Assembly: GCA_963377175.1 (NCBI GenBank)
Contig: CAUJNA010001013.1
Coordinates: forward strand, 1,036,872-1,100,871
Origin: Effrenium voratum
Taxonomy: Eukaryota > Sar > Dinophyceae > Suessiales > Symbiodiniaceae
DNA length: 64,000 nucleotides
Reading direction: 5' to 3'
Positions 9,504-32,610 of the stretch are shown in pieces. Positions within the stretch are counted from its first letter, which is position 1. Every line of letters starts with the position of its first letter. The notes beneath the pieces were generated by a model. That model searched no databases. It saw only the letters and a program-made list of their open reading frames with translations, and was not told the DNA's origin. A program made the translations under genes and the position numbers.

Positions 9504-9511
9504 CCCCCCTC
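9504..9511 (-). promoter_or_regulatory. Polypurine tract for plus-strand priming
   Basis: GAGGGGGG on the sense strand, abutting the TGTGATT start of the 3' LTR. This is the position and composition expected for the RNase H-resistant primer of LTR elements. Confidence 0.85.
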
Positions 9512-9519
9512 ACGAGGAG

Positions 9520-9535
9520 CCCGTCATATGACGGG
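9520..9535. other. 16-bp perfect palindrome beside the polypurine tract
   Basis: CCCGTCATATGACGGG is fully self-complementary with no loop. It lies 8 bp internal to the polypurine tract, in the untranslated tail of the element. Function unknown; it may be a dyad binding site or part of an RNA fold at the 3' end. Confidence 0.7.
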
Positions 9536-10085
9536 TGGAGCGTGCCATTTACTGATAGGATTTAACTGCTCGCATGCGTCCGCAAACAGCTGGACACTAC
9601 CGCCGTCAGCGGTGGAGCAAACCCACAAAGGCAGTTGCGCGACATCCCGGGCATTAAATTCCCGCCACCACCCCGAATTAATCGGGGTAACGCTGTCCAA
9701 CATACCTTGTGGAAAAGTCCACGTGACGACACTAGGCCACAACTGTTTGCATCAACAATGCAAGAAGTTTAATTCTTATCAGAAGCCATGAAAAAGAAGA
9801 TAACGTATGTCCATTAGCACCCTCGCCTAACGGCAAGAGGTACTCCTGACCATGCGTACCTGAAAAATGCTTGAATTCCGCAAACCCGGGAGTAACCCCC
9901 CATCAGTTTGCTTTCCCCCTCACTCACACTGCTTCCTGATGAACACGACCAGCAGCCCAGCAGCGGTACGGGAGGGACATGACCTCCGCGCCTCAGCGGT
10001 CCGGGAGGAACATCACCACCTCCGCACCGCGCCGACCATTGGAGAATGGACGCTAGCCTACCGGCCGCAATCCTCGTGACTCAGC

Positions 10086-10601
10086 CTATCGGCTATCATC
10101 ACGTCTCCTCCGGTCACGTCCGCCCCGCGCGCGGTCTCTGTCACGATCCCTTTCGGACCTCCTGCGATCATCTCGCCTTCGATCTCGCTCCCGATCTAGT
10201 GAATCATCATCACGACGATCACGAGCATCGTCCCTCCTCCGGTCGCGATCATCCTCGCGCCGCGGACGGTATCTGCGCCTTCTCGATTCTCTGGAATCCC
10301 TGGTGTCCACGGTCCTAACGGACCTCCGAGAAGGAGTGCGGGAAACATCCGATTCCCTACGTCTTCTCCCAGAGCGAGAATTCGTCACGATCTGGTTGAG
10401 AGCCTCCAGTGCTGACGCGTCCTCACCATTTCTAATGAAATCCTTGACTTGCTTGTTCAGCACTCTGTTGGTGGAGACCGCCAAGAGAGCGTCCACCACC
10501 GAACTCTCAGGCAGCACCAGGAAGTGACCCTCCACCGGGCTCGCCGCAGTTCGCTCAGCCGACTGCAACCTGATCTCACCGCCTTCAGGCTTCTTTGCCA
10601 T
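10086..10601 (-). CDS. ORF-D: RD/RS-rich C-terminal tail
   Basis: 171 codons from ATG, although the same frame is open for a few codons upstream and meets ORF-C. The first 80 residues look folded (VVDALLAVSTNRVLNKQVKDF); the rest is almost entirely Arg with Asp, Ser and Glu (DRERDRRRDDRRRSERDRDR). Such RD/RS tails occur in U1-70K and SR proteins and bind RNA or splicing partners. It is the last coding segment; an untranslated tail of about 580 nt follows to the 3' LTR. Confidence 0.6.
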   Translation of the reverse strand: MAKKPEGGEIRLQSAERTAASPVEGHFLVLPESSVVDALLAVSTNRVLNKQVKDFIRNGEDASALEALNQIVTNSRSGRRRRESDVSRTPSRRSVRTVDTRDSRESRRRRYRPRREDDRDRRRDDARDRRDDDSLDRERDRRRDDRRRSERDRDRDRARGGRDRRRRDDSR

Positions 10602-11452
10602 TGCCTTGGAGCCGTCAGAGGCGCTACCGCGTCCTTTGCCGAAGATCTACCAAGCGCAGAGTGAAGATCATCTCCACTAGCCTCTCTTGCTGCCGCACCT
10701 GGTCTGCTGTCAACGTCATCAGGCCTCGTCGATGCCTCTCGCTTCGTCGACTCCTTCACAGTCTCGTCAGGATCCCAACGGGACTTCCTTTCTCTCTTCT
10801 GCCCTTCAGCCGACCCCCGACTACCGCCAGGAGCGTCGTCTCCGCCTACCTTCTCCTTCTTGACCTCAACCCTCGGTTCGGCCTGCTTCGTCTCCTTAGC
10901 CTCAGCCTTCGGAGCCGGAGCATTCTTCGCCTCAGACACAGAAGCGGCCTTCCCTTTTGGCTCGGCCTTTGGAACCGGGGTCGTTTTGGCCTTTGCGCTC
11001 GGCCTGGCTCCTTCAACCACCATCGCGACCCAAGTCTTCTTCGGTTGGGCCACAGTTGCATCAACCTCCATCGGAGCCGGCCCAGCATCAGCCTTCGCTT
11101 TTGCCTGCGGGACAGACGGACTAACGCCCTTACCAGACCCTTTTCCTGGCACTTCACCTGACTTTGGTGGTGGGCCGGAAGGGCTACCGCCCTTACCGCC
11201 CTTTTCCCCCTTCTTCCCTTTTCCTTTTCCGCCCTTGACGATCGGCTCCTGCTTAGGACCAGGACCCTGTGCAGCATGATGCACCGATTGAAGCCCTTCG
11301 ATGTCCACGTCTAATGGCTCCGGTTGACGACCATCAAGGACCGTCCTTACCCTTTCGTCACTAACGTAGACGAATGGGTCACGGAAGGGAGCGGGAGGCT
11401 CCGACTGCCCGGCACTGATTGCCTTCTGCACCTTGGCTATCGCCTCCTTCAA
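10457..11452 (-). CDS. ORF-C: Lys/Ala/Pro-rich accessory segment
   Basis: 331-codon frame starting at a TTG that overlaps the stop of ORF-B; the frame is open upstream, so a one-base frame change is likely. After a helical start (LKEAIAKVQKAISAGQ) it is Lys, Gly, Pro and Ala-rich (KGGKGKGKKGEKGGKGG; repeated AKA and PKAE), a basic disordered region likely to bind RNA or DNA. From about 10610 the reading continues in the ORF-D frame; the last 45 codons here are probably noise. Confidence 0.55.
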   Translation of the reverse strand: MKEAIAKVQKAISAGQSEPPAPFRDPFVYVSDERVRTVLDGRQPEPLDVDIEGLQSVHHAAQGPGPKQEPIVKGGKGKGKKGEKGGKGGSPSGPPPKSGEVPGKGSGKGVSPSVPQAKAKADAGPAPMEVDATVAQPKKTWVAMVVEGARPSAKAKTTPVPKAEPKGKAASVSEAKNAPAPKAEAKETKQAEPRVEVKKEKVGGDDAPGGSRGSAEGQKRERKSRWDPDETVKESTKREASTRPDDVDSRPGAAAREASGDDLHSALGRSSAKDAVAPLTAPRQWQRSLKAVRSGCSRLSELRRARWRVTSWCCLRVRWWTLSWRSPPTEC

Positions 11453-14220
11453 TCTCTTCTTCTCATCGTACCCGGTCCCGACACCATGTACCCCCTGAGT
11501 TGCGATATCAACGCATGACTGGCCAGGATGTCCACGTCCTTCCGATGGGTCGGATACAATGGGGTCAGATGACCCGCCGCGGAGCCAATCACATACGCCA
11601 TCGGGATGTAGAAGGATAAGTACGTATCATGACGAGCGAACTTCCTAACGGAAGTCGTCATACGCCTACCCCACTGAGCAGCATGCCTCGGGTTAGCTCG
11701 GAAATACTCAGTGACCGAATCAAATCTATCGACTTGATTGGTCATAATCAGGTGCTTCGCCACCCACTTCTCCACGAACGCATCCGAGGCCGAAATCCCC
11801 GACACATAGGAGAATTGGAAGAGCACCTTCGCCAGCTCATCCCACGCCGTATCAACTCCTCCCTTGTCTTCACCAAGATAAGGGGGCAGTCTGATGCCGC
11901 TCTGCACCGTCATCCTCAGGTCAGACGCCATCGAATAGGAAATCAAGTTCCTCTTGATGACTCCGACCACTTCGGAGGGGATCCTCTTGGGCTTGAACTG
12001 TCCCATGGTCCTCACCCACTCCGGGACGATACGGCACCTCTCGAAGTCATTTTCCTCCGCGTTGGGGATAAAGTTCGGGTAGAAGACCGGGAGTGCACAC
12101 CCAGGACACAAATGCATCCCATTTGGCGTCATCTCCGCGCACCTCAAACAGAACGTGGTGGTCACATTCAACCTGACCTCCTCACGCGATCGCCTGTGCT
12201 CTCCCCTAACGGGGGTGAAGTCACCATAGTCCCATACCCGATGGTACACTATCGTGTAATCATCGTACATGTATGCTGCCTTCCAAGCTCCCATGTGGAT
12301 CTCGTTCCGAACCGCAAGGGTCTTCCTCCTCGTCAAAAACACGGGTCCAACCAAGGACCAGTGCACCCGAAGGTCCACCATCACCACCACGTACCTACCC
12401 GAGTAGTTCCGCAGCCTGTCCCTGACGTACCACGAAGGCGATACCTCGGCATTCGGCGCCATGGTTCCCACAAGTGGGATCAGGCCCTCATCCTGCCTTC
12501 CATCTCCAATGGTCTCGTACACATCGGGCCTCGTGATCAATATCTCGATCATGGCCTTTCCGTTTCGCCTCACCCTTTGGAGCTGAACCGCCTTCCTAAA
12601 GTCCGAGAACTTCATGACGACGTACCCCACCATGGGGAGTTCATTCCAATGCATCTCGTACATCAGAGATCCACCAGGTGCATCCTCTTGAGTGTACCTT
12701 TGCCTAACGGCACTGTAGCTCATGTCGCGTCCGATCCGCGTGTGCCTAACGGCCACTAACCTAGTGCTCTCCTTGAGGAGGACACCATTCCCATCGTACA
12801 TGACCATGAGCATCGCCTCAACTTGCCCTATCGGGAAAGCTTTGATCGTCGGAATGAAGAACTTCCACGACATCTCGGCGTTCTCCATGCCCGAGATCTC
12901 CCTCAGGAACCAGATGGCCTGGTCACTATTCACCCAGTTTCCAGCCTCACACCCGGTTTCCTTCAGCACACGTTCCTCGAATAACTCCGAGACTCTCTTC
13001 GAGTTGATGACCAGACCCTCAAAGTCGCACGAAAGCAGTCTCATCAACTCCTTAGCTGCCTCCCGCCCTGCAACGGTGCCCGCGGTCTCCTCGTAGTTCG
13101 GGAGGTATTCGCCCAACCTTGTCTTCGAGGGAACCACAATCTGGCATGTAGCGGCCTCATCAGGGATAACCCCAGTACCCCTTAACTCAGGATTGATTTC
13201 CCGCCTATCGGCAAGATAATCCTTCCTTCCATCCAGGACCACAAGATTGTAGGTCATCTTGCTCGCCGCCTCACTCGGTCTGAATCTCCTGCTATCATCC
13301 AGCTGATCAGGAGCAAATGGTCCACTGGGGGCAGCTGCACTCACCATAGGCGCCCCTCGCCCAGAGCATAGGTGTTTCTTGTGAAAGTTCACCATCTCGT
13401 TCAGCTGCGACAGGGCATAGGCTCGATCCTCCAATGACGCACTCTTCATCCCAGCCTCAGTCAGAGGAGCCTCAGGCTTGTCATAATTCGCCTTTCCGCC
13501 CCATCTCGCCGCGACCAGCTCAGCAGACTTCGCAGGGTCGATCAGATTGCCCGACCATTCAGGCATGTTGCTCAACCTCCTAGTCAACGCGTCTATCGAC
13601 GCGGCCAAGTCTTCATCCGTCACGGTGTGAGGGTCAACCTTCTCCCTGTCTTCTTGACCCACGTCCGGAAGCCTATAGTCCCCGCGGATGGCCTCCATCG
13701 CGGCCCTCTCGGCTTCCTCAGCCTCCTTCTGCGTGGCCACTGCTCTAGGAATCAGGAGCGCAGCCTCTGCTGGCAACGACTTCTCCATGTCAATCGGAGT
13801 GTTCTTGGGAAGGATCCTTCGATCATCTCCCTCCCCGCTGTACACATAGTCAGGAGCAGCCTTTCGGTACTCCTCGAAGGTAGCCCCTTTGTAATTGGTG
13901 ATCTCGCTCGGGTCTGCCTTCCGAGGCGTGGGCTTCTTCGTCCCGGCGGAATCCTTCTTGGAGCCTTCCTGATCCACATCCATGTCGTCTTTCTTCTTCT
14001 CCGTCACGGAAAGTTTTCCAATGTCAGGAAGGGTCACATCATCGCCCTTTTCCGATCCGACGCCCCTATCGGGGGCCGGCTCGGTCCTCGGTTGCCTCGA
14101 AGAGCTCGCCCCAGGATCCACGTCGCCCTCGTCATCCACATGTGGTCGCTTTCCCACACGATCTTCGTCTTCGGCTTCAGCGGGACTGCGACACCTCCAG
14201 CCATATGGTGTCCAGGCCAA
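11449..14220 (-). CDS. ORF-B: accessory protein with CxxC-x10-CxxC zinc finger
   Basis: 923-codon frame from a TTG; overlaps the end of ORF-A by 187 nt and is probably its frame-shifted continuation. The N-terminal 170 residues are acidic and rich in Glu, Lys and Pro. The middle is a long globular region (GYVVMKFSDFRKAVQLQRVR, RYVVVMVDLRVHWSLVGP). A zinc ribbon-like CLRC-x10-CPGC lies at about 12090-12150. No homology recognised. The end of the frame (11449) again overlaps the next frame, near 11460. Hairpins of the GNUA family are dense here (11640-15770). Confidence 0.65.
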   Translation of the reverse strand: MAWTPYGWRCRSPAEAEDEDRVGKRPHVDDEGDVDPGASSSRQPRTEPAPDRGVGSEKGDDVTLPDIGKLSVTEKKKDDMDVDQEGSKKDSAGTKKPTPRKADPSEITNYKGATFEEYRKAAPDYVYSGEGDDRRILPKNTPIDMEKSLPAEAALLIPRAVATQKEAEEAERAAMEAIRGDYRLPDVGQEDREKVDPHTVTDEDLAASIDALTRRLSNMPEWSGNLIDPAKSAELVAARWGGKANYDKPEAPLTEAGMKSASLEDRAYALSQLNEMVNFHKKHLCSGRGAPMVSAAAPSGPFAPDQLDDSRRFRPSEAASKMTYNLVVLDGRKDYLADRREINPELRGTGVIPDEAATCQIVVPSKTRLGEYLPNYEETAGTVAGREAAKELMRLLSCDFEGLVINSKRVSELFEERVLKETGCEAGNWVNSDQAIWFLREISGMENAEMSWKFFIPTIKAFPIGQVEAMLMVMYDGNGVLLKESTRLVAVRHTRIGRDMSYSAVRQRYTQEDAPGGSLMYEMHWNELPMVGYVVMKFSDFRKAVQLQRVRRNGKAMIEILITRPDVYETIGDGRQDEGLIPLVGTMAPNAEVSPSWYVRDRLRNYSGRYVVVMVDLRVHWSLVGPVFLTRRKTLAVRNEIHMGAWKAAYMYDDYTIVYHRVWDYGDFTPVRGEHRRSREEVRLNVTTTFCLRCAEMTPNGMHLCPGCALPVFYPNFIPNAEENDFERCRIVPEWVRTMGQFKPKRIPSEVVGVIKRNLISYSMASDLRMTVQSGIRLPPYLGEDKGGVDTAWDELAKVLFQFSYVSGISASDAFVEKWVAKHLIMTNQVDRFDSVTEYFRANPRHAAQWGRRMTTSVRKFARHDTYLSFYIPMAYVIGSAAGHLTPLYPTHRKDVDILASHALISQLRGYMVSGPGTMRRRD

Positions 14221-17200
14221 GTGGCCCCTTCAGGGTCATCTTCGAACCATGATTTCCCGAACGGGAACCCATCCCTTCCGATGATCTCCTTCCTATCGGA
14301 AGCAGACCCCGAATGGGACAATGCCGACACATGAGACAGCATAATCTCCGCCGCTGATTGCGCCAGCGTATCGGACATCTGCTCCCTCGTCGGGATAGTC
14401 CGCAACTCCGGAGCAAGGTGACCGGCAATCATGCTGAAAGGCGCAGTCCCCAACCGCTTGCCTAGCACCGCTTCGTTCAGCGCGCTGAAGTACTTCTGCA
14501 ACTTCTCCAGCATCGCCGTTGCCGCCATCAGCTGAGGGTGGAACATTGGCATACGCCACGCACGCCCAAGGGCGCAGTCCACATGCGATGCGATCGTGGT
14601 GATCGTCCCTACCAGCAGGTGTGATGACGCAATCTCCGGCACCCAAGTCGGATCATCCAAAGGAATGCATTGACCCGTCTGCGCGTTCAGCAAGGTAGCC
14701 CTCACTCCCGGCGCTCGGAGACAATCATACGCCCTGCGGTTCGGGTCACTAACGACACCACGAACCATGTAATCATCCCGATCGGGCATATCTGCCCAGT
14801 CCCCCGGAGGTGCTCGTCCATGATGGTACTTCGCCTGAATGTCCTGCCTCATCCCTAACGGGATGTGGGCAGCCTCGGACGCCACCTTCTTCATGTTCCA
14901 TTGTTGATCACCCCACGGCGTAGACTTCCGATCTCGAGGATTGATGTACTCCTGATCGATCCTCCCAGCAGCTCGGGAAGCATCCAACGCCCCGTACATG
15001 TAATCGTTATGCACGGCTCGCTCCAACACCGCACTCCACTCGCTATCGCGATTAGGGAACACAATGTGGCTAGTCTCGTTCGCCTTCCTCCACTCCTCCG
15101 CGGTAACCCGCTCTTGAGTGATTGCCTTGTTCCGGATCACGGCATAGATGAAGGGCTCACCAGCCTCCCTGGCCAGGATATGCTGAACGATGAACCTCCT
15201 ATTGGATCTGCTCTCCGCCGGTCTCGCCGAGGTCCGTGAGCCCCTTGTAGACAGGTATGAACTATGCTCACGGTGATGCCGAACCTCTGCTGACTTCAGC
15301 TCGGGTGCTTCTCCCGGATGCTCTGGGTACGGCGTGTTCGCATAATTGTGTATGCCCCCTCGAGACTCCTGGGTCGAAGCCGCCTTCGGGGTCGCTGCAG
15401 TATCCCGCAAGTCCCCGTCATCGTCCGTGTACTTGGGAGCATAGGAGATTGGCACACCTGGGCCAAACGTACCCGACGCCTCCTCCTTCTTCTGAGAATC
15501 AACAGGATCTCGAGCCCTGCGTTCTTCCCTAACGGGCGACGCCGCTCGCCTTGCCGCAGACGATTCCACCGACGGTTCAGTCGTAGTCGTAGTGGCCTGA
15601 GGTACCTCAGCTTCCCTACCGGGAGTCTCCTCCTCACCTACAGCGGGAACCTCGGCTTCCTTGTCCGGCTCCATCTCAACGTCTCCGGTGAACTCTAACA
15701 CCTCAGCCTCGGTCGGACCCTCACCATCATTGAAGGTATCCGTAGGGAGATCGACCCCTTCCCTATCGGGTAGGAGATCATCGACCTCGGTGGAGCCACC
15801 CGTGTTCTCCTCCTCAATCGTCGCCGTGGGCGTCCGGAGACTCGATGACCATCGATTCCCAACTTCGGTTGCAGTGACCTGAGGTGAAGAAACCCTCGGA
15901 CTCCGAGGTGGGTTCGGTGGAGACTTTGGTCTCACCGATGCCAGCATCTCCTTCGTGACTAACGTCTTAGGAGGTGCTTTCGGGGCAGCGGTCTGACCTC
16001 CCGCACGCTGACCTGCGTCGGATGACTGCCCACCGGGGCTCACGCCTACCGGCGGTCCTCCCTGACCGGCGCCTGTCATATCGACATCCTCAGACTCAGA
16101 CATCGAGCCGCCATCACCCATCTTCGAAGAAGTACCCTCCTTCAAAGACTTGAGGATGTGGTCCCTGATGTACAACGTGACGGAGCCAGGCCACGTGGTC
16201 CTAGTTAGGGAGAAGAAGTCCGGGACAGCCGCGAGGTAAGCCGGCACCACAATCCAAGCCCTTTGGACTGGCCGATTCCTGCCGTAGCTGTCAACTTCAC
16301 TCCCCCACGACACAGCGTCTGATGAAACCACCGGGATCAAATTCGCACGGAGATCGCCCATCTTAAACTGGATCTCCTTCTGCATGTGAACCCCTTGGTC
16401 ACCCTCTCGACCTAACGATCGCCCTGGGCCGCAAACCATCACCTTCACCTTGTTGTTGAGCGCGACCAGCGACTCCACGTCCCTACTCCACATGGTCGCC
16501 GCATCGCTTCTCGCCTTCCATGCGTTCCTCTCCCACCTAAACAGGTAGGAGCCGCGGAGGCCAAAGACATACAGGTCGTACTTTGCGGCATCTGCATTGT
16601 TGTACTTCTGGAGGCAGTCTTCCGTCCGCTTGTCCATCAGCTCGTACGCCTTGTCGATCATCATCCGAAGGGATGTCTCCTCGTTATCACGAGTACTGGT
16701 CACGTAATGCACCTCATAGTTCTTGAACGGCCGGTTATCCGGGGAACCCCTCAACCGATCATTCTTTGTCCTGCACTTGAGGATGTCCTCCGCCAACGTT
16801 GCTGGGTCCATCCCTTTCTTGTTCTTCGTGGATGCAGTGTTGAACGTCTGATCCAGCAGGTAGAACACAGTCGCATCCGGAGCCGCGGACTCCTCTTTGA
16901 ACACCGGAGGACCGTATCCGGCCGCTAAGGCCGCAGCAATCCTCACCGCAGCGCCTGTCCCACTAGCCGCTAAACACCGAAGCAAGATTACCATCTTGTC
17001 TTGGTAGCGACTCATCTCGTGCAGCACGATGGATGGGTAGATAGACAGCATCACATCCGCTAACACGGCAGCTGCCCATGCGTCCCACTGCCTTTCCATT
17101 TGTGCAGAATCAACCGCCACGCGGGAGTATCCTCCCCTCGGCAGCTCCACTGTTGGCGGGACGACCTTCCCGCTCCTGATTAGGCGCATCACCTTCCTAG

Positions 17201-19001: not shown

Positions 19002-19295
19002 GCGTCAGCAGGTTCGGGCCACCGGCCACAGAACCACGGATGAACCGGGAACCCAGCCTACCGGCCAGAATCCCCCTGTCTCACAGAAGGCTCAGCCTAT
19101 CGGCCAGAGACCCTCTCCCTAGAACAAGAACCTCAAAGATGAATAACTGACTGAAACCGTCCATCACGAAGCAGAAGAAAACCTCAGTGACAGGCATATC
19201 TGCCTCATGCTTTCATTCTGGTCAGTAAGCGCATTGAGTTGCCTGTGAATGTGGTGCGGTTGCCCGCGGGGTGAGCCAGCTTGATCAAGCAAATG
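19002..19295 (-). other. Gap between Pol and ORF-A
   Basis: 294 nt without a long frame on the sense strand. It separates RNase H from the ATG of ORF-A, so ORF-A needs its own translation route: a subgenomic or trans-spliced RNA, or reinitiation. Two GNUA hairpins lie 40 nt apart near its 3' end (19056-19065, 19095-19104); the first extends to 7 pairs with sense-strand G-U pairs. Confidence 0.5.
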
Positions 19296-20576
19296 CTACG
19301 CGGCAACGAAGTTATTCAACCACTTCCCAACAGCAAGCGATCGGTCGTGCTGAGAGAGGGTATCCCCTCCTCGCATCTTGCAAGTACTCCAAAACGAATT
19401 GAAAGACTTAGAAGAGAAGCACCTAAACACGACCCCATGTCTCTTGAGACCACACTGGCATGCGCAAACAGACCTGCAATCAAACCCATGCGTGGTGGCG
19501 ATTCCTTCAACCTCACCTTCCTTCAAGATATTGCATTTAGGTCGATACAGGATGATAGGAACACATCCACTGGTCCGAGCATCACAAGCCAAGTTGAACC
19601 TTTGCCTAACGGCGGCGTCGGTCCTATCCCTAAGCTTTCTGGTCTGTCCCCACTTCCCAGTCCTGGAATCAACCCTATCGGGTGCAAGATCATTAAGAAC
19701 AAGCACAACATAACAAAGGCTATCGCCTTCAATCCTACCAGATCGTATGATGTGATTCCTGTAACCAGGAGCAACTTGAAGCGTGACAACCCTGCAAAGA
19801 TCACTATAAGCAAGAACATCGGCTATCGCCTGATCCGCAATAATAGTTTTCTCGCATCTTTTCCCTCCTTTTTCCTCGTCAATCACGATTCCCTCGTACT
19901 CAGAGAGTAACCTCTCCATGAGCCGATTGAAACCGGATTTTGCACCTGATTCCATGCGTACCCCCCTAAGCGGGGGCAGTCCAGGAGCGGCAGGGGGCTT
20001 AAGACAGGGTTGGGTGGGTTGGGCCAAATATTCCTGCAGGTATCCCGGCAGGAACATACCAAGTGTGTGCAGATTTCTATTCCACACGACCTTGTCAATG
20101 CAGGCCTTAGTGAAAATGTCTGCACCTTGGTAGTGAGACGGGCACGCAACGAACCGGAAAATTCCATCATTAAAACGTTCGTTGAGCCAAGAGATGTCAA
20201 TGCGCTGCGTCCTTGACACGTAGCGCATGTTGGGATTATTCCCAGTTATAACGATCCGGCACGCCGATTCGTTATCCTCCAGCACGTTGATAATAAACGG
20301 CTGGGTCTCCTTTCCCTTCCCAATAGCGTGCTGCCAGAGGGTAGCTAATGCCATTCCCTCCTTAGACACCCCGTGATCAAGAGCAACAATCTCCGCTTCA
20401 GGAGTCGACTTCGAAACGGAAGTCTGTTTCTTGCTTACTCCAGTGATGGGCATGTAGGTCCTAGGACCCACAAGGCAAATAAGCACTCCCGACGTGCTCT
20501 TGGAATCAGTACGATCCCCAGCCAGATCCGCATCACAGTAAGCAACCAACTCAATGAACTCTGGGCTATCGCCCAA
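19296..20576 (-). CDS. RNase H and Pol C-terminal extension
   Basis: 426 codons from a TTG that is really a frame continuation of RT. Ty1/copia RNase H signatures: AYCDADLAGDRTDSKSTSG, SKSTPEAEIVAL, LEDNESACRIV and the tail YVSRTQRIDI...FTKACID. The acidic residues of CDAD, PEAE and EDNE match the catalytic set. Residues after about 185 form a 240-residue extension with no motif I know (a short Cys pair, VCACQCGL). It degrades template RNA and leaves the polypurine primer. True stop at 19296-19298. Confidence 0.88.
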   Translation of the reverse strand: MGDSPEFIELVAYCDADLAGDRTDSKSTSGVLICLVGPRTYMPITGVSKKQTSVSKSTPEAEIVALDHGVSKEGMALATLWQHAIGKGKETQPFIINVLEDNESACRIVITGNNPNMRYVSRTQRIDISWLNERFNDGIFRFVACPSHYQGADIFTKACIDKVVWNRNLHTLGMFLPGYLQEYLAQPTQPCLKPPAAPGLPPLRGVRMESGAKSGFNRLMERLLSEYEGIVIDEEKGGKRCEKTIIADQAIADVLAYSDLCRVVTLQVAPGYRNHIIRSGRIEGDSLCYVVLVLNDLAPDRVDSRTGKWGQTRKLRDRTDAAVRQRFNLACDARTSGCVPIILYRPKCNILKEGEVEGIATTHGFDCRSVCACQCGLKRHGVVFRCFSSKSFNSFWSTCKMRGGDTLSQHDRSLAVGKWLNNFVAA

Positions 20577-22915: not shown

Positions 22916-22941
22916 TACCTGAGAGTTTCTTCTCAGATCAT

Positions 22942-25590: not shown

Positions 25591-25913
25591 CTCATGGGTA
25601 ACCCCATTTCGGTTAACGACAGTTTCCTGTAGTTGTCCAATCGATCAACCCCAACGGGGCAATCATCGCCTGTCGGCACAAACTTTGCTTTACGCGGAAG
25701 CCGGTGCTCCTTCACAACATGGCCCGACCGCTCAGTGCGCCAGGTGTCCTGTAGCTCACTCTTGGCCGTAAGCTCAGACCTACACGGCGGAACCTCGCTG
25801 GCTTCAAGCCCTCGATACGCCGCCCCGGGGGCAGGCATAGCAGGGAGTGGCTCAGCATCATCAAGAGTGGGAGAAACGAACTGAGTGAAGATATGGCACG
25901 TTGTTGATGACAT
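25539..25913 (-). CDS. Protease-integrase linker segment in a third frame
   Basis: 124-codon frame, of which roughly 25630-25885 appears coding: it bridges the end of the protease frame and the start of the integrase frame. It contains a proline-rich stretch and then WRTERSGHVVKEHRLPRKAK, the kind of linker that precedes integrase in copia-like elements of dinoflagellates. The integrase frame takes over near 25620. Both switches are single-base and could be natural frameshifts or sequence errors. No catalytic motif. Confidence 0.5.
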   Translation of the reverse strand: MSSTTCHIFTQFVSPTLDDAEPLPAMPAPGAAYRGLEASEVPPCRSELTAKSELQDTWRTERSGHVVKEHRLPRKAKFVPTGDDCPVGVDRLDNYRKLSLTEMGLPMRCWLIVFGSYLKEISMR

Positions 25914-26889
25914 CCAATGTCACCGTGCGGCCCGAAGGACACGTGAGAGTAGGCTTGCAACCTGCAGTCCATACAAACGAGTATCCCATATCCATACAGC
26001 GTTTTCCAACGGATATAATGGATGGAGTGGACTCAAGGACGTGTGCCTCAATCACCTCGTCCAGGTTGCCGACATCAGCATCAACACGACCAGCGGTGCG
26101 AGTCGCCCCGTTCGCAGTGTGCAGCGCGTGAGTGTGCCCGCCTTTGGCAATCAGGGCCCTATCGGGTCCTTTCAAATCACCAAGACCGACCAGATCCATT
26201 GGGCAACCAGTATCCACCAGCCACCTCACCCCGCCGTATCCAACAGGTGCAGCAACCTTCTGAGTGTACTTCGGCTTTCGAACAACGCGATGTCCCCGCA
26301 CATCCCCAGGGTTGGTGTCGATGTCCTCGTCATTGTCTAAGAGCACTTGGGCGTGAACAGCCGCTGCTCTTATCAGAGCACTTTGAACCTCCCTAGCAAT
26401 TCTCTTGCGTGATGGGAACTTAATCGCATTTGGATGGCTGTATCCAGCCTCTCGGCAACGATTCACGATCCTGCCCGTATTGTCATTCTCAATTGAGACA
26501 ACAAACACATCAGGGAGATTGGGAATCTTGACCCTGAGAGGCTCCCTATCGGGACCCTTCGGGAAGTACTTGTTCCTCCAGGACAGTACAACCTCCGCAT
26601 CGTCGCAGTACCAAAACGTCGTCTTGGTATCACTTCGTCTTGGGAGTCTCCTGAACAAGGTCGCTCGGCAATCACTGAAGTTCACCCCGATATCCTCGAT
26701 CACGGTCCCATTCGCGTCAACGGTCCTTCTCCAAATGACTTGATCCCATTTAGGACCTCCACCAGTAGTACCGGAGAAGAACGACGCGTCTCGCTCGCTT
26801 TTCTCCCAACTGCTGACGCAAGGAGGGAGGCAACCCGGTGCAGACCCACCGGTAGCTGGGGCAACAGCCCACATAGCTGGACACGCCAC
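25861..26889 (-). CDS. Retroviral-type aspartic protease
   Basis: 342-codon frame from a GTG; the frame is open further upstream to the Gag stop. The catalytic motif VRWLVDTGCPMDLVG (Asp226-Thr-Gly) is the active-site D-T-G of retropepsins, followed about 60 residues later by hydrophobic strands (ISVGKRCMDMGYSFVW) consistent with the flap and the second half of the fold. The 200 residues before the motif are a conserved-looking region without known motifs. It would cut the Gag-Pol polyprotein as a dimer. Near 25880 meaningful sequence moves into the frame 25539-25913. Confidence 0.8.
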   Translation of the reverse strand: MACPAMWAVAPATGGSAPGCLPPCVSSWEKSERDASFFSGTTGGGPKWDQVIWRRTVDANGTVIEDIGVNFSDCRATLFRRLPRRSDTKTTFWYCDDAEVVLSWRNKYFPKGPDREPLRVKIPNLPDVFVVSIENDNTGRIVNRCREAGYSHPNAIKFPSRKRIAREVQSALIRAAAVHAQVLLDNDEDIDTNPGDVRGHRVVRKPKYTQKVAAPVGYGGVRWLVDTGCPMDLVGLGDLKGPDRALIAKGGHTHALHTANGATRTAGRVDADVGNLDEVIEAHVLESTPSIISVGKRCMDMGYSFVWTAGCKPTLTCPSGRTVTLDVINNVPYLHSVRFSHS

Positions 26890-26925
26890 AACAACACGGT
26901 TGGCCTCAGGGTAACGGCCCGCCCC

Positions 26926-26936
26926 GCCTAAAAATC
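26926..26936 (-). promoter_or_regulatory. Candidate -1 frameshift site at the Gag stop
   Basis: Sense GGATTTTTAGG. In the Gag frame it reads GAT TTT TAG; slipping back one base on the U run gives TTT TTA and enters the protease frame, which is open across this point. It is not a perfect X-XXY-YYZ heptamer because the stop occupies the A site. An assembly indel is the alternative. Confidence 0.35.
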
Positions 26937-27620
26937 CGTCAATCCTTGAGCGGGGCTGTCGAGACGCCTCGCCTCCCTATCGGGAGGACTGGGCGTGGGC
27001 GATCTAGGGGTATCCCCCTCTTCATCCTCAACAACCGGACCAGCAGTAGTACGAGGCGTGATGGGCTTCGTACCTGGTGGTGGCTTCTGATGCAGGTACT
27101 TGCACGGCTGAGCTGTGCACTTGCCATACATCCAGTCGTAGCAGTATCCGAAGAACATAGGCTTGTCCCTAACGGGCCTATCGCCAGTCCTCGGCGTAGA
27201 GGGCGCAGCGGGGTTCCTTGGGCTCTTGTCGTGCTCGAACCTGCATTCCCGGCCATATTGACATTTCCCAGTCTTCGTATACTCCCAGCACACCCGATCA
27301 GCAGGCCCAGCTGGGGACTGTCTTCTCGGCGACTTGGGAGACGGCGTGCGCTTGTCCCTCTGACTGCCTCTCCCAGGAGAAGCTCTGTCCCTTTGACTGC
27401 TTCTTCCGGGCGAAGATGATCTTGGCTTACCGTCGGGTTTCCCATCCCTTCCGGACCTAACGGACCTTGAAGGGCTAGGATCACTCTTCCTGGCAAGTGG
27501 ATCGTACCTCCGCACAACACCAGGAGCGCCAGGATGCCGATCCCTCTCACGGGAGTGAGAGCCTGATCGTGACCTTTGCTCATGAAAAGTCTGGTACATC
27601 TGAAGCGTGTTCTGTCCCAC
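26928..27620 (-). CDS. Gag C-terminal part with two CCCH zinc fingers
   Basis: Continuation of Gag in another frame. It starts with helical sequence (TLQMYQTFHEQ), then an RS-rich stretch with tandem RGSQRD/RSSQRD motifs, then two CCCH fingers: C-x8-C-x5-C-x3-H (CWEYTKTGKCQYGRECRFEH) and C-x7-C-x4-C-x3-H (CYDWMYGKCTAQPCKYLH). These replace the usual CCHC knuckle of Gag and should bind the element RNA. The frame ends in TAG at 26928-26930, preceded by a U run; the protease lies in the -1 frame. Gag and protease are therefore probably joined by frameshifting, or separated by an indel. Confidence 0.75.
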   Translation of the reverse strand: MGQNTLQMYQTFHEQRSRSGSHSRERDRHPGAPGVVRRYDPLARKSDPSPSRSVRSGRDGKPDGKPRSSSPGRSSQRDRASPGRGSQRDKRTPSPKSPRRQSPAGPADRVCWEYTKTGKCQYGRECRFEHDKSPRNPAAPSTPRTGDRPVRDKPMFFGYCYDWMYGKCTAQPCKYLHQKPPPGTKPITPRTTAGPVVEDEEGDTPRSPTPSPPDREARRLDSPAQGLTDF

Positions 27621-28432
27621 CTCTCGATGTCAGGCCGCATACAGCGTAGATGACGAACGTTCTCAATGAACACAGCTAATAGTACCCCATCATCGATCTT
27701 CTTCCTGATCCCAGAAATGAGATTGTCCCAGGTGCTCAGATAACTCCGGAGCCTAGCTTCATCGTCGGAGTGACCTGTTTGCCGGCACTTGAGACTAGTC
27801 AACTCGGCAATCTTGAAGGTCTGGTCGTCCTCGACCCCAGTCTGCAGGTGGTTCAGCAGAAGCTTCAAGATCTGTCTCCCCTTGATACCCTGGGGAGGAT
27901 TCATATTCTGAGCGGCTTCGGTCAGGCGATTCATCTTGTCCCTAACAGCCCTCGTCTTGATACACTCCCTGATAGCACTCGTGAAGTTGGAATCCAAGAT
28001 CGGGTACTTGCAGGGTCCACCAAGAGCATCATAGTCAAGCCTCTCAGTCTCTGAAATCCACGCTAACGCGTAGTCAGAGTCAAAGCTGAAGGCATTCCTG
28101 ACCCTTTCCTTTATCTCGGAAAGCCATTCCCGCAGCTTATCAGCTGTCGGCTCAGCAGGCAGCACGATCGTGTTGCACTTATGATGGAACCGATCCTTAT
28201 CGACAACGGTGGAAATCAGAGCCCCTATCGGGGTACATGAGGTAATCCTGCAACTTTCACACAGCCTAGCAGGCATAGGGCAGCAAACCTCACACGCCCT
28301 CATTCCACAACCAACGCAAGGAACAAGAGGGAAACCAGGCTCGGGGATCCTGCTACACTTAGTGCACCTGTCCCGTCCATCATCCCCCCTCAACAGGGAG
28401 AAGACCACCATCTCCCTGTCTACCGGCCCCAT
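26939..28432 (-). CDS. Gag: N-terminal zinc finger and capsid-like domain
   Basis: 497-codon frame. The real Gag-like part is about the first 280 codons: a CxxC finger (CTKC...CVGCGMRACEVCC...CESC, residues 22-60) and then a helical region of about 200 residues (KLREWLSEIKERVRNAF, LLLNHLQTGVEDD) that resembles the UBN2-type capsid region of copia Gag. At about 27610 a one-base frame change moves the meaningful sequence into the overlapping frame 26928-27620, and the remaining codons of this frame are probably not translated. Forms the particle and packages RNA by analogy with copia Gag. Confidence 0.7.
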   Translation of the reverse strand: MGPVDREMVVFSLLRGDDGRDRCTKCSRIPEPGFPLVPCVGCGMRACEVCCPMPARLCESCRITSCTPIGALISTVVDKDRFHHKCNTIVLPAEPTADKLREWLSEIKERVRNAFSFDSDYALAWISETERLDYDALGGPCKYPILDSNFTSAIRECIKTRAVRDKMNRLTEAAQNMNPPQGIKGRQILKLLLNHLQTGVEDDQTFKIAELTSLKCRQTGHSDDEARLRSYLSTWDNLISGIRKKIDDGVLLAVFIENVRHLRCMRPDIERWDRTRFRCTRLFMSKGHDQALTPVRGIGILALLVLCGGTIHLPGRVILALQGPLGPEGMGNPTVSQDHLRPEEAVKGTELLLGEAVRGTSARRLPSRREDSPQLGLLIGCAGSIRRLGNVNMAGNAGSSTTRAQGTPLRPLRRGLAIGPLGTSLCSSDTATTGCMASAQLSRASTCIRSHHQVRSPSRLVLLLVRLLRMKRGIPLDRPRPVLPIGRRGVSTAPLKD

Positions 28433-29723
28433 TTACGCTGTAGCCAAGGCTAAGACCTGGCCCAAGGTTACCACCGCTCGCAATACTCGAGGGGTAACCT
28501 ACAGCATCGTTGGGCTGACTAACGCCAGCGCCAACCCCTTGGTGGCTAACGCCACCTCCGTAGGCAGGACCATAGAAACTGGAACCACACTGATTGTTCC
28601 CAGCTCCATGAGTATCAGCAGCACTACCATAGAACCCGGGTGCTCCACCAGGGTAACCCCCGGTAGGAGCCCCTCCACTCGGGCCTCCAGGAGGTCCAGT
28701 GAGACCTTGGCCTCCGCCGGGATGTCCAGGACCTGGTGGTGGAAATGGAGCATGCCCATGACCACCACTTCCACTCCCACCTTGGCCGGATGGTCCGCCT
28801 TGCCCACCTCCTCCCCCAGGAGGAGGAGGGGGAGGGGGCGGTCCAGCTGCATTGCGTTCATGCCGAATAGTACAGCGCGCACATCGCTCGAGGCCATCAT
28901 TGCCAAAATGACTGTGATCCTCGCAGATGTGGTTCGCACACTCCGTGCAGGAATACATGGGGACCTCCTGGGCACTTTTGTGACACGCCCAGCATTTCAT
29001 CTTCAAGAAGTGACAATTGCAACAGTCCCCATCGTCGCCCCGGCAAAGCCTGCAAAAATCACGCTTGCACGTGACACACGAGAATTCAGCGTCCGGGTGC
29101 CTACGGTCATTGGGTTCATCGAGGGCACAGATCTTTGGCGCACCTGGGCCACCGGTACCGGGAGCTCGTCTTGCAGCCGGTGCCGAGGCCTGTCCACGAT
29201 CAGATGGAGTTCCAGGGGTCCTCCAGCTATCGCCGGGACTCTGGATGTCGGCACGAGCTCTACTCCCAGGAGTCCTCCAGCTATCGCCGGGACTCTGGAT
29301 GTCGGCATGGGCCCTATTACCCCTACCACCTCCTGGATGACGGTCAGGGTTCGGAGACGCTCCCGCTATCGCGGATCGGCCTATCCAGGTTCGGAGAGAT
29401 GCTCCCGCTATCGCGGACTGGCCTTTCCCCCCTCGATTGCCGACTCCGGACCTCAGATCCCCTATCGGGGACGGCAGCAGGCCTCGGGCTCCTATTCCTA
29501 CCCACATCCCTGTTGGGAGAAACAGAAATGTCCCCCCTTGCGCGTGCGCGGGGGCCATCCCTCGCACGCCCTGGCGGTGAATGCGACCTGTCAGGCAGTC
29601 CCCGAGCCCTCCTGCTTCTGCTGTCAGCCCTCTCCCTATCGGGATTAATGGGATGCCTGCCTGCTCGGGAAGGATCGACCCTACCGGGCACATCTGGCAA
29701 AGCGTGATCAACCAAATCAACAC
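28380..29723 (-). CDS. ORF2: Cys-rich finger domain with Pro/Gly-rich tail
   Basis: Open frame of 447 codons from a GTG; the part above 29343 overlaps ORF1 and may not be translated, so ORF2 is probably reached by a frame change from ORF1. Residues 216-284 hold more than a dozen Cys and His residues in CxxC pairs (CVTCKRDFCRLC, CCNC, CWAC, CTEC, CARC), resembling a B-box or RING-like zinc-binding module. A proline run (PPPPPPPP) and a long Gly/Pro/Ser-rich tail follow. Two 17-residue direct repeats (containing IQSPGDSWRTPG) lie at about residues 141-170. It ends in a G6 run at 28382-28395; one G fewer would continue into the Gag frame. Role unknown, perhaps nucleic-acid binding. Confidence 0.6.
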   Translation of the reverse strand: MLIWLITLCQMCPVGSILPEQAGIPLIPIGRGLTAEAGGLGDCLTGRIHRQGVRGMAPAHAQGGTFLFLPTGMWVGIGARGLLPSPIGDLRSGVGNRGGKGQSAIAGASLRTWIGRSAIAGASPNPDRHPGGGRGNRAHADIQSPGDSWRTPGSRARADIQSPGDSWRTPGTPSDRGQASAPAARRAPGTGGPGAPKICALDEPNDRRHPDAEFSCVTCKRDFCRLCRGDDGDCCNCHFLKMKCWACHKSAQEVPMYSCTECANHICEDHSHFGNDGLERCARCTIRHERNAAGPPPPPPPPGGGGGQGGPSGQGGSGSGGHGHAPFPPPGPGHPGGGQGLTGPPGGPSGGAPTGGYPGGAPGFYGSAADTHGAGNNQCGSSFYGPAYGGGVSHQGVGAGVSQPNDAVGYPSSIASGGNLGPGLSLGYSVNGAGRQGDGGLLPVEGG

Positions 29724-32556
29724 CTCCGCCCGGTCTCACCGGAAGGCCAGTACCCCGACCGTTACCTTCTCCGGGAGTGGGCGTCGGAGACCTGATTCTG
29801 TGTCCCTGCCCCGCAAAAGCGTCGTATCCAACGTTCCGTCTCTCTCTGGGCTGTGGAGGATTTACCTGATTTTCCTGGACACCCTGAATAATGCCAGCAG
29901 CCTCATCGACATGACCTTCGATTTCATAGAGCTGAGCCATGATTCTGTTGTTCATTCCATTAAGAGTACGCACGTTACTCTCGACAGTGCTGATTCTCCG
30001 CATAGCGCCTTCAAGCGTACTCCGGAATGAGTCGATTTCACGCCTAACGGCAGACCGTGCTTGATCACTATTCGCAGGGAGATTGCGGATCTGCCTTCTG
30101 ATGTCATCAAGAACTTGATTCAGAATCCCCGAACTCGCTTCGTACTGCTCAACACGGGACTTCAAGGTTTCAAACCTCGCAAGGACATCGTCATGATCCC
30201 CATGGTGGCGTTGAACTCCGCGAGATAGATCCTGGACCTTTCGATTGACTTCGTCAATTGCTTCATGCCAGTCCTGCGGGGATACAGGTCCTGATGATCT
30301 ATCGATCGCCTGTGACCCCCTCCCACTTTGCAGCCTCGACATTCGATTAGCAAGGATGGTTTGTTCTTCATTAATGCCACCAATAGATTCGGAGGCCCAC
30401 TTAGCAAACTTCTCGTGTTCAAGGAGAGCCTTCTCGAGCTTCAGGTTTAACTCTCTGAAATTCGCGTTCACCCCGCTGCTGCTAGCCCTATCGGGCGGTT
30501 GCGCGGCAGGATTCAAATTCCATTCACCTGCTGGCGTCCGCATCCCAACGGTTTTCTCTACCGAGAACATCCGTCCCTCAAGCTTGTCCAAGTCCTTAAG
30601 GATCTCATCCTCGGAAGCAGCATGGCTCCTGTGGACGGCCTCACGATTCTCTTGAATCATCTGACGAAGCCGATCAGTTGCGGCCTCATTGTCCTTAACA
30701 GATTCATGAACCTCGTGTGAAAGCAGATTGATCCTCTGTTCCACGACTTCAGCCTGTTCATCGATGGCTTGCCTCACAATAGCTTTGCTGTCGGGACTGA
30801 CTTCCTTGGCAAACCGTTGAACTATCATTCGCATCCTACCGGCATCAGATTGAGTCGCAATCTCAGCTGTCAGGCGATCGACCTTGTCCTTCGTCTGTCG
30901 ATTCTCGTCGCCCCATTCCCTCCGCATGGAACTCACCTGACCGTTCAGTAATCTGATTTGGTCAGCAAAAATATGGAACGCCTTCGCGACTGAGCCAGAA
31001 ACCTCACCCCTCTCGAGCATCTCCTGGGTGTGCAAATCGAACACCTCCTTTGCCCTAGCGTCACCTGACTCACCGGAAGACTGGGATCTAAGGGCAGGAG
31101 GAGTCGATATCTCGATCCTCTCAGGAGCCCCACTAGCTCTAGCAAGTCTGCCGGGGTTGCCTACAGGACCTTCACCTATCCTGGACGGCCTACTCGGGGT
31201 AGATCCCCTTCTCCGGCTATCGCCAGATCGGGGATCAATGTTGGATGCACGAGACTCGGGAGTAGAATGAATGTGAACATCAGCAGGATCAGGCATCTCC
31301 TCATCCTGCGGGGTTGAGCCCATTGGTGAGGGGCTAGCCCTCCTCGCCTTTGACCTATCGGTCTCAATGGCGAGGGGTGACGGCCTCTTCGCAGAAGCAC
31401 TCCGTTCCCTGGCGGTCGAGCCCCACTGAGGTGTGAACTCGTTGCTAGACCTCAGCGTTTCAAGGTCACTGGTATCTCGCCCTAACGGGCTAGCGATCGA
31501 CGGACGATCTTCGATTCCGAGTGCATCGGCAAGCCGACCATCTCTTGCACCTGTCCCAACGACTGCGGCAGCCCGTTCAGTGATCCTTGGCGAACCAGTA
31601 ACCCGGTTCGAGTCCTCGTCTCTCTGATGCAGCGGACCTCCAAATGTAATGTTGGGAAAAGGGGGAACGTTCGGGGTGTCACCAATCACTGGGGGACCTA
31701 TCGGTCCCTCCCGGTCATGGATGGCCTCCAATCCCCTAAGAACTTCCCGGCTATCCCTGGCTCTCTCTCTCTCGCTCCGGGCGTCCCTGTCAACATGAAG
31801 GTCCCTGGCAGCTCCACGAGAGAGGCTCCTGGGCCTCGCGGCAGCACGGATTCTAGCATTCCGGCGTGACTGATCCTCTTCTTCATCACGACGATCCGCA
31901 AATGCGGCATAATCTTCATCATTATCAAACTCAAACTCGGCAGCAACAGGGTTGAGCCTATCGGCATCAGACTCCTGCTTTGCGCTACTGCCCCAGCCTG
32001 CGGTTGATTTCAACAGATCATCGTATCCGAAGCCTGTGAATTTCCTCTCCTCATGCTCATCAAACTGACCTGGATTTTGAGAACCAGTAGATCGACCCGA
32101 GATATCTCTCGGAGCCAAAACCATAGTCCCTGGTCCTTGCGGCCTGTCCTCAAACTCATCCGATACCTGAGACTCACCTGGAACAAGAGATCTCGGGGGT
32201 CGGGTCGGCATAGCCTCCGGGTCGTCCGAATGAGGGCGGGCCATGTTCATCGCCATGCTGATGAAGTCGAACTGTCCGCGCCTGTGACCTGATTCAGAGC
32301 CGCTCCTATCGGAGCGAACCCTTCGTGTCTGCTCATCATCGGTGGCCTGACGGAAAATGCGATCGTCTCCATCGTCGGTGTACCTGCCACGGCTCCTGGG
32401 TGTGTCCCTACCGGGATCTTCACCCCTGCGATCCTGACCTGTCGAACCTGCTTCGAAATCCTCGTAGTCATAGTCCGGTAGGTCCTCACCTGAGCGGAGG
32501 CCCCCTAGGATGGCCTCCTCATCCACGACACTCCTGTGAGATCGTGGGGTCGACAT
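29344..32556 (-). CDS. ORF1: large coiled-coil, Arg/Ser-rich protein before Gag
   Basis: About 1070 residues from the ATG at 32556, only 54 nt after the 5' LTR; the frame is open to 32580, but that start is TTG. The N-terminal half is acidic and rich in Ser, Arg, Asp and Pro (probably disordered). Roughly residues 540-900 have long heptad-like Leu/Ile/Val spacing with many Glu, Gln and Arg, typical of coiled coils. The C-terminal 150 residues are RS/RD-rich with repeated RDSGS motifs. No enzyme motif and no cysteine clusters. As the first ORF of an LTR element it is probably a structural, Gag-related or RNA-binding protein; the family is not recognised. The frame ends at 29344, where ORF2 continues in another frame. 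Confidence 0.75.
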   Translation of the reverse strand: MSTPRSHRSVVDEEAILGGLRSGEDLPDYDYEDFEAGSTGQDRRGEDPGRDTPRSRGRYTDDGDDRIFRQATDDEQTRRVRSDRSGSESGHRRGQFDFISMAMNMARPHSDDPEAMPTRPPRSLVPGESQVSDEFEDRPQGPGTMVLAPRDISGRSTGSQNPGQFDEHEERKFTGFGYDDLLKSTAGWGSSAKQESDADRLNPVAAEFEFDNDEDYAAFADRRDEEEDQSRRNARIRAAARPRSLSRGAARDLHVDRDARSERERARDSREVLRGLEAIHDREGPIGPPVIGDTPNVPPFPNITFGGPLHQRDEDSNRVTGSPRITERAAAVVGTGARDGRLADALGIEDRPSIASPLGRDTSDLETLRSSNEFTPQWGSTARERSASAKRPSPLAIETDRSKARRASPSPMGSTPQDEEMPDPADVHIHSTPESRASNIDPRSGDSRRRGSTPSRPSRIGEGPVGNPGRLARASGAPERIEISTPPALRSQSSGESGDARAKEVFDLHTQEMLERGEVSGSVAKAFHIFADQIRLLNGQVSSMRREWGDENRQTKDKVDRLTAEIATQSDAGRMRMIVQRFAKEVSPDSKAIVRQAIDEQAEVVEQRINLLSHEVHESVKDNEAATDRLRQMIQENREAVHRSHAASEDEILKDLDKLEGRMFSVEKTVGMRTPAGEWNLNPAAQPPDRASSSGVNANFRELNLKLEKALLEHEKFAKWASESIGGINEEQTILANRMSRLQSGRGSQAIDRSSGPVSPQDWHEAIDEVNRKVQDLSRGVQRHHGDHDDVLARFETLKSRVEQYEASSGILNQVLDDIRRQIRNLPANSDQARSAVRREIDSFRSTLEGAMRRISTVESNVRTLNGMNNRIMAQLYEIEGHVDEAAGIIQGVQENQVNPPQPRERRNVGYDAFAGQGHRIRSPTPTPGEGNGRGTGLPVRPGGGVDLVDHALPDVPGRVDPSRAGRHPINPDRERADSRSRRARGLPDRSHSPPGRARDGPRARARGDISVSPNRDVGRNRSPRPAAVPDRGSEVRSRQSRGERPVRDSGSISPNLDRPIRDSGSVSEP

Positions 32557-32583
32557 AGAGCTTGTAGTTGATGGTCTCAAGCG

Positions 32584-32600
32584 CGTAGGAAAGTCCTACG
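32584..32600 (-). other. Perfect 7-bp hairpin in the leader
   Basis: CGTAGGA and TCCTACG separated by 3 nt. It overlaps the inner half of the putative primer-binding site and lies about 28 nt before the ORF1 ATG. It could pair with the primer or regulate its access. Its loop does not belong to the GNUA hairpin family found through the element. Confidence 0.6.
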
Positions 32601-32610
32601 GCTGATAACC
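32592..32610 (-). promoter_or_regulatory. Putative tRNA primer-binding site
   Basis: The sense strand directly after the 5' LTR reads GGTTATCAGCCGTAGG. It lacks the TGG start expected for priming by a tRNA 3' CCA end. It resembles the GGTTAT-type sites of Drosophila copia, where an internal half-tRNA cut in the anticodon loop is the primer; its complement, CTGATAACC, looks like an anticodon loop and stem. Position is clear; the primer tRNA is inference. Confidence 0.5.

Follow-up and report, generated by a model that had tools for sequence, protein, structure and literature searches.

What is achieved by dozens of short RNA hairpins that share a loop rule and differ in their stems, and by which molecule are they read? 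This question is raised by a Ty1/copia-type long terminal repeat (LTR) retrotransposon of the dinoflagellate Effrenium voratum, which occupies 9125..32989 on the minus strand (23,865 bp) of a stretch of 64,000 nucleotides (contig CAUJNA010001013.1, positions 1,036,872 to 1,100,871, GenBank assembly GCA_963377175.1). This whole stretch is called the window, its numbering is used throughout, and the minus strand is the sense strand of the element. An initial annotation, made from the letters alone, had described about 65 such hairpins and proposed a distributed RNA signal, which might consist of packaging sites bound by Gag, of sites where the RNA is modified or cleaved, or of a tag for self-recognition. 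The existence of a distributed RNA signal is supported by our analysis, since the excess, strand, flank and compensation results all fit it. New here is that relatives of the element use other loops.

Each hairpin was counted as a G[A/G/T]TA tetraloop (GDTA hereafter) closed by at least three Watson-Crick pairs. The array extends over 9773..32416 (minus strand) at 2-10 hairpins per kb with stems of 3-6 pairs, and inside 9125-32955 the sense strand carries 97 hairpins (58 GATA, 26 GTTA, and 13 GGTA), 66 of them with at least four pairs and 33 with at least five, compared with 2, 0, and 0 on the antisense strand at the same thresholds. The earlier figure of about 65 equals the count at four pairs and falls below the count at three, and the hairpins quoted with it are present where they were placed, such as CGCTCC-GATA-GGAGCG at 32301..32316 and CCTCCC-GATA-GGGAGG at 26972..26987 (both minus strand). 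A codon-preserving shuffle had been suggested as a check, and 300 such shuffles gave 6.9 ± 2.4 hairpins at three pairs (maximum 13), 2.07 at four (maximum 8) and 0.76 at five (maximum 3), which rules out coding bias as their source. Dinucleotide shuffling in 1-kb pieces gave 2.6 at three pairs (maximum 9 in 1000 shuffles), and when G.U was allowed in four pairs, 105 were observed vs. 9.2 (maximum 16 in 100 shuffles). Repeats are also ruled out as a source, since the stems differ.

The loop rule is strict. No other tetraloop exceeds four hairpins at four or more pairs anywhere in the element, and the generic stable tetraloops are ruled out as an explanation by their counts against 100 codon shuffles, with YNMG not enriched (5 vs. 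7.1 expected) and GNRA not clearly enriched (6 vs. 3.7). GCTA hairpins with at least four pairs number 0 in the element vs. 0.4 expected, and a single sense-strand GCTA hairpin with at least three pairs stands outside the count of 97. Codon phases 0, 1, and 2 hold 48, 11, and 32 hairpins and six are non-coding; the phase that had been described as avoided is under-used and not absent. The two LTRs (2 × 379 nt) contain no hairpin, where about three would be expected at the internal density. In the approximately 40 kb of flanks, six GDTA hairpins with at least three pairs lie on the minus strand and five on the plus strand, so that flanks and antisense strand are both at background level, and the former statement that the flanks hold no clear member is nearly right apart from one nine-pair hairpin at 35815. 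Across eight 10-kb host stretches (80 kb) the two strands hold 8 and 10 at three or more pairs and 2 and 2 at four or more, and no Rfam family matched the window at its gathering score. This isolated hairpin, GTCACCAAA-GGTA-TTTGGTGAC at window 35815-35836, is situated just upstream of the element and exceeds every stem of the array. In the right flank, TATA and ATAT loops arise from an AT repeat.

The defects of imperfect stems bear on which nucleic acid is folded, because sense RNA tolerates G.U and not A.C, antisense RNA shows the reverse, and single-stranded DNA favors neither. Among GDTA loops with a single defect in four pairs, pairs 1-3 show 25 G.U, 1 A.C, and 6 other mismatches, and pair 4 shows 10, 5, and 16; the other tetraloops show 156, 115, and 583 at pairs 1-3, and the G.U to A.C ratio differs between the two sets (Fisher P 3e-5). 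A second family gives 10, 1, and 7 at pairs 1-3. On the sense strand, G.U defects are thus common and those of the A.C type rare; sense RNA is taken as the folded form for this reason, and both single-stranded DNA and antisense RNA were rejected as the form in which the GDTA hairpins act. Stem G+C is 0.91, 0.79, 0.64, and 0.68 for stems of 3, 4, 5, and 6 bp in the window element, and this decrease with length would be expected if selection acts on stability and not on the stem sequence. Stems longer than 6 bp are absent from the window element, and two 7-bp stems occur in the sister family described below. With 60-nt flanks, the predicted inner-pair probability has a mean of 0.75 for the 97 hairpins vs. 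0.18 for 150 other tetraloop hairpins, a comparison unmatched for stem strength, which is higher in the GDTA hairpins.

A sister family in the same genome (C2524 and C3251; 57-58% amino acid identity in the 3′ frames and 78-87% in pol) allows the array to be followed through divergence. In 21.6 kb, its C2524 copy has 96 GDTA hairpins at three pairs and 76 at four, and a codon-by-codon alignment with the window element covers 19,758 nt at 66.5% identity. A comparison was possible for 51 of the 66 four-pair hairpins of the window element (1 gapped and 14 unaligned) and, as controls, for 95 of 116 hairpins that have other tetraloops. The stem is still paired, with G.U allowed, at 34/51 GDTA sites vs. 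14/95 controls (P 5e-10); stem and identical loop are retained at 11/51 vs. 4/95 (P 0.003), and stem plus a loop within the GDTA class at 30/51. The C3251 comparison gives 27/36 vs. 12/66 for the stem, and as this copy belongs to the same family as C2524 it is not independent. At the 48 loop-retained sites with at least three pairs, 19 pairs have changed, of which 8 are double compensatory, 4 became G.U and 7 are broken, as against 7, 26, and 75 of 108 changed pairs at controls with identical loop; in other words 12/19 changed pairs still pair vs. 33/108 (P 0.009). Stem-loops are therefore kept with compensatory change, and the compensation is confined to the loop-retained sites.

Individual hairpins illustrate these changes (all on the minus strand). 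TGCTCT-GATA-AGAGCA at 26365..26380 corresponds to TGCCCT-GATA-AGGGCG in the sister family, with one compensatory pair and the outermost T-A changed to T.G, and ATGC-GATA-GCAT at 25536..25547 to ACGC-GGTA-GCGT, with one compensatory pair and a changed loop. Both GAGAG-GTTA-CTCTC at 19903..19916 (sister GAGAA-GTTA-TTCTC) and CGCC-GGTA-GGCG at 16043..16054 (sister CACC-GGTA-GGTG) are compensatory. Hairpins are also gained and lost: TACAC-GATA-GTGTA at 12245..12258 occurs in each of the three copies of the window family that were compared and is missing from the four copies of the sister family set beside them, and the positions turn over because the sister family gained other sites. The second loop base is altered at 28 of the 48 retained sites. 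It falls on codon position 2 at 23 of them and is altered at 12 of these 23, so that the encoded residue changes and the loop stays within its class. Where the sister family has abandoned the GDTA class (25 sites), the loop is never GCTA.

The loops themselves differ among related elements, and this is an observed difference for the sister family, for a family that we call F3, and for a contig that we call L030. Within the GDTA class, the usage of GATA, GTTA, and GGTA is 58, 26, and 13 in the window copy vs. 11, 45, and 40 in the C2524 copy (P 9e-12). F3 (C352 and C1309), from the same genome, has a reverse transcriptase (RT) 62-63% identical to that of the window, and in 30 kb it contains neither a sense GDTA hairpin with four pairs nor any enriched tetraloop; residual GDTA hairpins are one with three pairs in each of two F3 loci (L033 and L035) and two antisense with four pairs in another (L034). 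In their place stand two hexaloops, GANNAA (16 sense and 0 antisense; codon shuffles 0.64, maximum 4 of 200) and TANNNC (10 and 0; shuffles 0.77, maximum 4), and a pentaloop, TANAN (8 and 2; 7 in the coding frames tested vs. shuffles of 0.62, maximum 3). Hairpins with these hexaloops number 0 (GANNAA) and 2 (TANNNC) in the window element. The hairpins of a C2224 copy are those of F3, and this copy does not count as independent. In L034 and L033, 8 of 10 TANNNC hairpins lie in the half from gag to integrase and 12 of 16 GANNAA hairpins in the half from RT to the 3′ end, as if the two loop classes marked two halves of the RNA.

A further family, F5 (C685 and C2524:30001-40000; 72% to F3), likely uses yet another loop. 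Its ATNNA pentaloops with four pairs number 5 and 9 in two stretches with 0 and 0 antisense, and both stretches together give 14 vs. 1.5 in codon shuffles (maximum 4 of 100), the shared stretch being counted twice. Loop patterns were scanned over loop lengths 3-8 with many patterns tested, and for this reason F5 is less certain than F3: its best log10 P is −6.2 in one 10-kb stretch and −2.8 for the same pattern in the other, whereas F3 reaches −14.4. A pentaloop pattern in one host stretch (L015) was rejected, as it consists of repeats of identical stems. Outside this genome, L030 (RGVM01000345.1, 3630 nt) is a contig of a freshwater-type Chitinophagia metagenome-assembled genome (MAG) with a single copia-type open frame, whose RT is 47% identical to dinoflagellate-type relatives, and its presence in this MAG is probably binning contamination from a eukaryote. 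It carries YNCG hairpins, 19 sense and 3 antisense at three pairs (shuffles 4.4 ± 2.0, maximum 10 of 500) and 10 and 0 at four (shuffles 1.4, maximum 6), and no GNTA hairpins. Positions are rarely shared. A window hairpin is no more than 6 nt away for 3 of 21 mapped F3 hairpins (random 0.98, P 0.07) and for 0 of 21 F5 hairpins, and an F3 hairpin is close to 1 of 28 F5 hairpins (random 0.52), which suggests that the families mostly placed their hairpins independently, with a possible overlap between F3 and the window.

Which protein might read such loops? The Gag region of the element ends in two CCCH zinc fingers, finger 1 at 27228..27296 (zf-CCCH_4, 28 bits vs. a cut-off of 24.6) and finger 2 at 27078..27143 (under the Pfam cut-off, 21.1 vs. 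27 bits), both on the minus strand; the two stand in the nucleocapsid position and are our candidate reader. The pair matches tristetraprolin (E 3.5e-4) and, more weakly, muscleblind (E 0.016-0.05). All four families examined in this genome have Gag ending in two such fingers, and finger 1 is near-identical between the two GDTA families and differs in F3 and F5, a correlation with loop class over four families. Taken together, we give about even odds (roughly 0.5) to the reading that the array is a family-specific, many-copy recognition tag on the genomic RNA, read by the Gag CCCH fingers for packaging; the protein reader, its identity as Gag and the packaging purpose are all candidate roles. 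Self-recognition of genomic RNA would suit the data because the tag is repeated, apparently read through its loop, present in the sense RNA, and different among co-resident families. In such a mechanism the stem would merely be stable enough to display a fixed loop, the loop being the part that is read, and an RNA-binding protein encoded by the element, most likely through the two C-terminal Gag fingers, would bind many loops together. By this binding the element's own 24-kb RNA would be selected and condensed into particles, whereas host RNA, and the RNAs of sister elements with their other loops, would be disfavored.

A broader proposal, which we consider tentative and slightly short of an even bet, is an evolving RNA identity code in this dinoflagellate copia clade, in which each family would repeat one loop tens of times (the GDUA tetraloop, the GANNAA and UANNNC hexaloops, the AUNNA pentaloop, or the YNCG tetraloop) and read it with its own Gag fingers. 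Code and reader would co-evolve, and a family that switched loop would rewrite its sites by the dozen in new places. If true, co-resident sister elements in one cell would avoid packaging each other. By analogy, the GDUA loops of the window and the YNCG loops of L030 may share a single fold that related proteins read; the loops of F3 and F5, which are of other sizes, do not fit this one-fold picture.

Several results weigh against a packaging tag read by Gag fingers. When all 73 aligned sites are taken, with those that were lost, changed pairs have not re-paired above the control level (25/72 vs. 205/637), which limits the compensatory change that had been asked for to the retained sites and implies that the loop is lost and then the stem. 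The G.U test in F3 and L030 rests on too few cases (G.U, A.C, and other being 2, 0, and 2 for GANNAA, 1, 0, and 2 for TANAN, and 1, 0, and 3 for YNCG), and the TANNNC defects, also few, give 1, 3, and 3 and no support for sense RNA. The F5 signals are sparse, with 5 and 9 hairpins of at least 4 bp in its two 10-kb stretches, which are partly homologous to each other, and L031 (JAPKCZ010000429.1, 3022 nt), a related copia fragment from a Kiritimatiellae MAG, has no enriched loop. Since the CCCH pair is common to all four families, its presence alone leaves the choice of loop unexplained, and about 100 sites per RNA exceeds what packaging should need. Other possible readers are the cysteine-rich N-terminal parts of Gag, its capsid part, and the products of the long 3′ frames.

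The same hairpins might be read by an element protein at another step, for instance when the 24-kb RNA is exported from the nucleus, translated or kept stable, or when its reverse transcription is controlled. All of the evidence for a tag in the sense RNA fits this equally well, and a long 3′ frame with relatives in both the C2524 and F3 families would offer a further candidate protein; even so we regard it as unlikely, because loops specific to each family would be most useful for telling self from sibling RNA, which is the problem of packaging, and because the hairpins run throughout gag, pol, and the 3′ frames at their density of 2-10 per kb and not near one control region. It is improbable that a host factor (a nuclease, a modifying enzyme, or an RNA-binding protein) acts on the hairpins to mark, edit, silence, or protect the RNA. 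An effect at the RNA level would agree with it, and many enzyme substrates have the shape of a short stem bearing a constant loop, but a single host reader would not be expected to meet sister families in one genome that differ in both the sequence and the size of their loops, the 80 kb of host stretches hold just 8 and 10 such hairpins, and their retention speaks against a purely harmful mark. It is because related elements use different loops that self-recognition or packaging is favored over the host modification or cleavage site named in the initial annotation.

Structure without any specific reader, serving compaction or protection of the RNA, or pausing and strand transfer of RT, has in its favor the apparent threshold of stem stability and the predicted folding. 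It is quite improbable given that YNMG and GNRA, which are stable too, are not clearly enriched, that GCTA is missing at four or more pairs and among the 25 sites that left the class, and that the choice of loop varies by family. An artefact of mutation or composition is the hardest to credit. Template switching can create palindromes, and coding bias or repeats might contribute; against these stand both kinds of shuffle, the strand asymmetry, the strict loop, and stems retained over 33% divergence better than control hairpins are.

Dispersed packaging signals usually are faint and contested. Retroviral and retrotransposon Gag proteins choose genomic RNA with nucleocapsid CCHC knuckles situated between capsid and protease; the present element likewise has zinc fingers at the C-terminus of Gag, yet these are two CCCH instead of CCHC fingers, and its signal extends across the internal region instead of the 5′ leader. 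Tandem CCCH proteins such as tristetraprolin and muscleblind bind short single-stranded motifs; they share the two fingers with the element, whereas the similarity is weak and the fingers here are part of Gag. Studies of single-stranded RNA viruses and the hepatitis B virus (HBV) pregenome (MS2, satellite tobacco necrosis virus, parechovirus, and HBV) describe several stem-loops with a short shared loop motif and proposed coat-protein binding (PMC6281560, PMC4751978, PMC5431903). As in these viruses, the element has many stem-loops sharing a loop motif beyond coding constraint. It differs in the density and strictness of its array (97 hairpins in 23 kb under a single loop rule, with predicted Gag binding), in that the host molecule is an LTR retrotransposon, and in that loop size and sequence change between related families.

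The enterovirus oriL offers another comparison. For its interaction with 3CD, both YNMG and GNUA loops are described as optimal (PMC6563195), and some GNYA loops are described as adopting the UNCG fold (PMC5633025). The tetraloop of oriL domain d, bound by 3C/3CD, resembles our case in that the GDUA and YNCG classes both occur here, in different elements. A viral genome has one or two such elements vs. approximately 100 here, oriL accepts GCUA, which is nearly absent here, and the two have no sequence relation. YNMG was not found alongside GNUA within one element, the window having 5 vs. 7.1 expected, and YNCG occurs in L030 instead; assignment to the UNCG/YNMG (Z-turn) class is here one of sequence class only. 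Literature searches, limited to top-ranked papers, found no distributed hairpin array in a retrotransposon.

In this element the signal is visible by eye and statistically overwhelming, and one genome provides natural replicates with different loops, so that the question of packaging by many sites or by one leader becomes directly testable. The families would also provide hairpin dialects and CCCH fingers, ready-made by nature, from which RNA recognition by zinc fingers could be decoded, and a case in which an RNA signal is retained while the encoded amino acid changes.

The element itself is delimited by a 5′ LTR at 32611..32989 and a 3′ LTR at 9125..9503 (379 bp, 99.5% identity), has TG...CA ends and is flanked on both sides by TTAAT, a 5-bp target duplication as in Ty1/copia LTR retrotransposons; on the sense strand a purine tract ending GAGGGGGG precedes the 3′ LTR. 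All its features are on the minus strand. Gag is encoded at 26928..32595 in overlapping frames (29344-32595, 28380-29735, 26939-28432, and 26928-27629), with a putative capsid part at ~27620-28390 proposed from position and conservation. A protease-like frame (25861..26976; no Pfam match) contains a DTG motif, which we take to be a protease sign. The integrase is placed at 22942..25644 from the copia order (no Pfam match), and a dUTPase domain follows at 22049..22438 (PF00692, E 2.4e-37). The Ty1/copia-type RT at 21128..21436 (RVT_2, E 6.8e-6) scores 26.3 bits, under the cut-off of 31.6; its assignment is supported by many RT homologues with PF07727, of which P0010 scores over the cut-off, and three relatives bearing the name Symbiodinium (P0033, P0036, and P0109) are among the best 120 of 239 RT relatives. 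RNase H presumably lies at 19296..20636, where we assume a motif to mark it (no Pfam match). In the presumed order gag-protease-integrase-RT-RNase H, RT and the dUTPase come from Pfam, and protease, integrase, and RNase H from position and motifs only.

Downstream, 11449..19004 holds two long 3′ reading frames of 1656 and 926 aa, putative proteins lacking Pfam matches. Relatives of the 1656-aa frame occur in the C2524 and F3 families and those of the 926-aa frame in the C2524 family; for the former (window 14034-19004), three homologous clusters with E <= 0.001 were found among 7989 candidates scored. An AlphaFold model of part of a 3′ frame had a mean predicted local distance difference test score (pLDDT) of 35.1 and was not used, and no relatives of the element were confirmed in IMG/VR. 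The frames of the window copy are disrupted by shifts, and other copies have longer open frames of up to 3267 aa. The zinc-finger frame ends approximately 45-48 nt within the protease frame in the window (26928-26976) and in a C3570 copy (L010), an overlap that looks like a Gag-Pol frameshift site, and in the C2524 copy zinc fingers and protease share a single frame. Beyond the element, window 37498-37813 contains a cluster of direct and inverted repeats of 75-87 nt.

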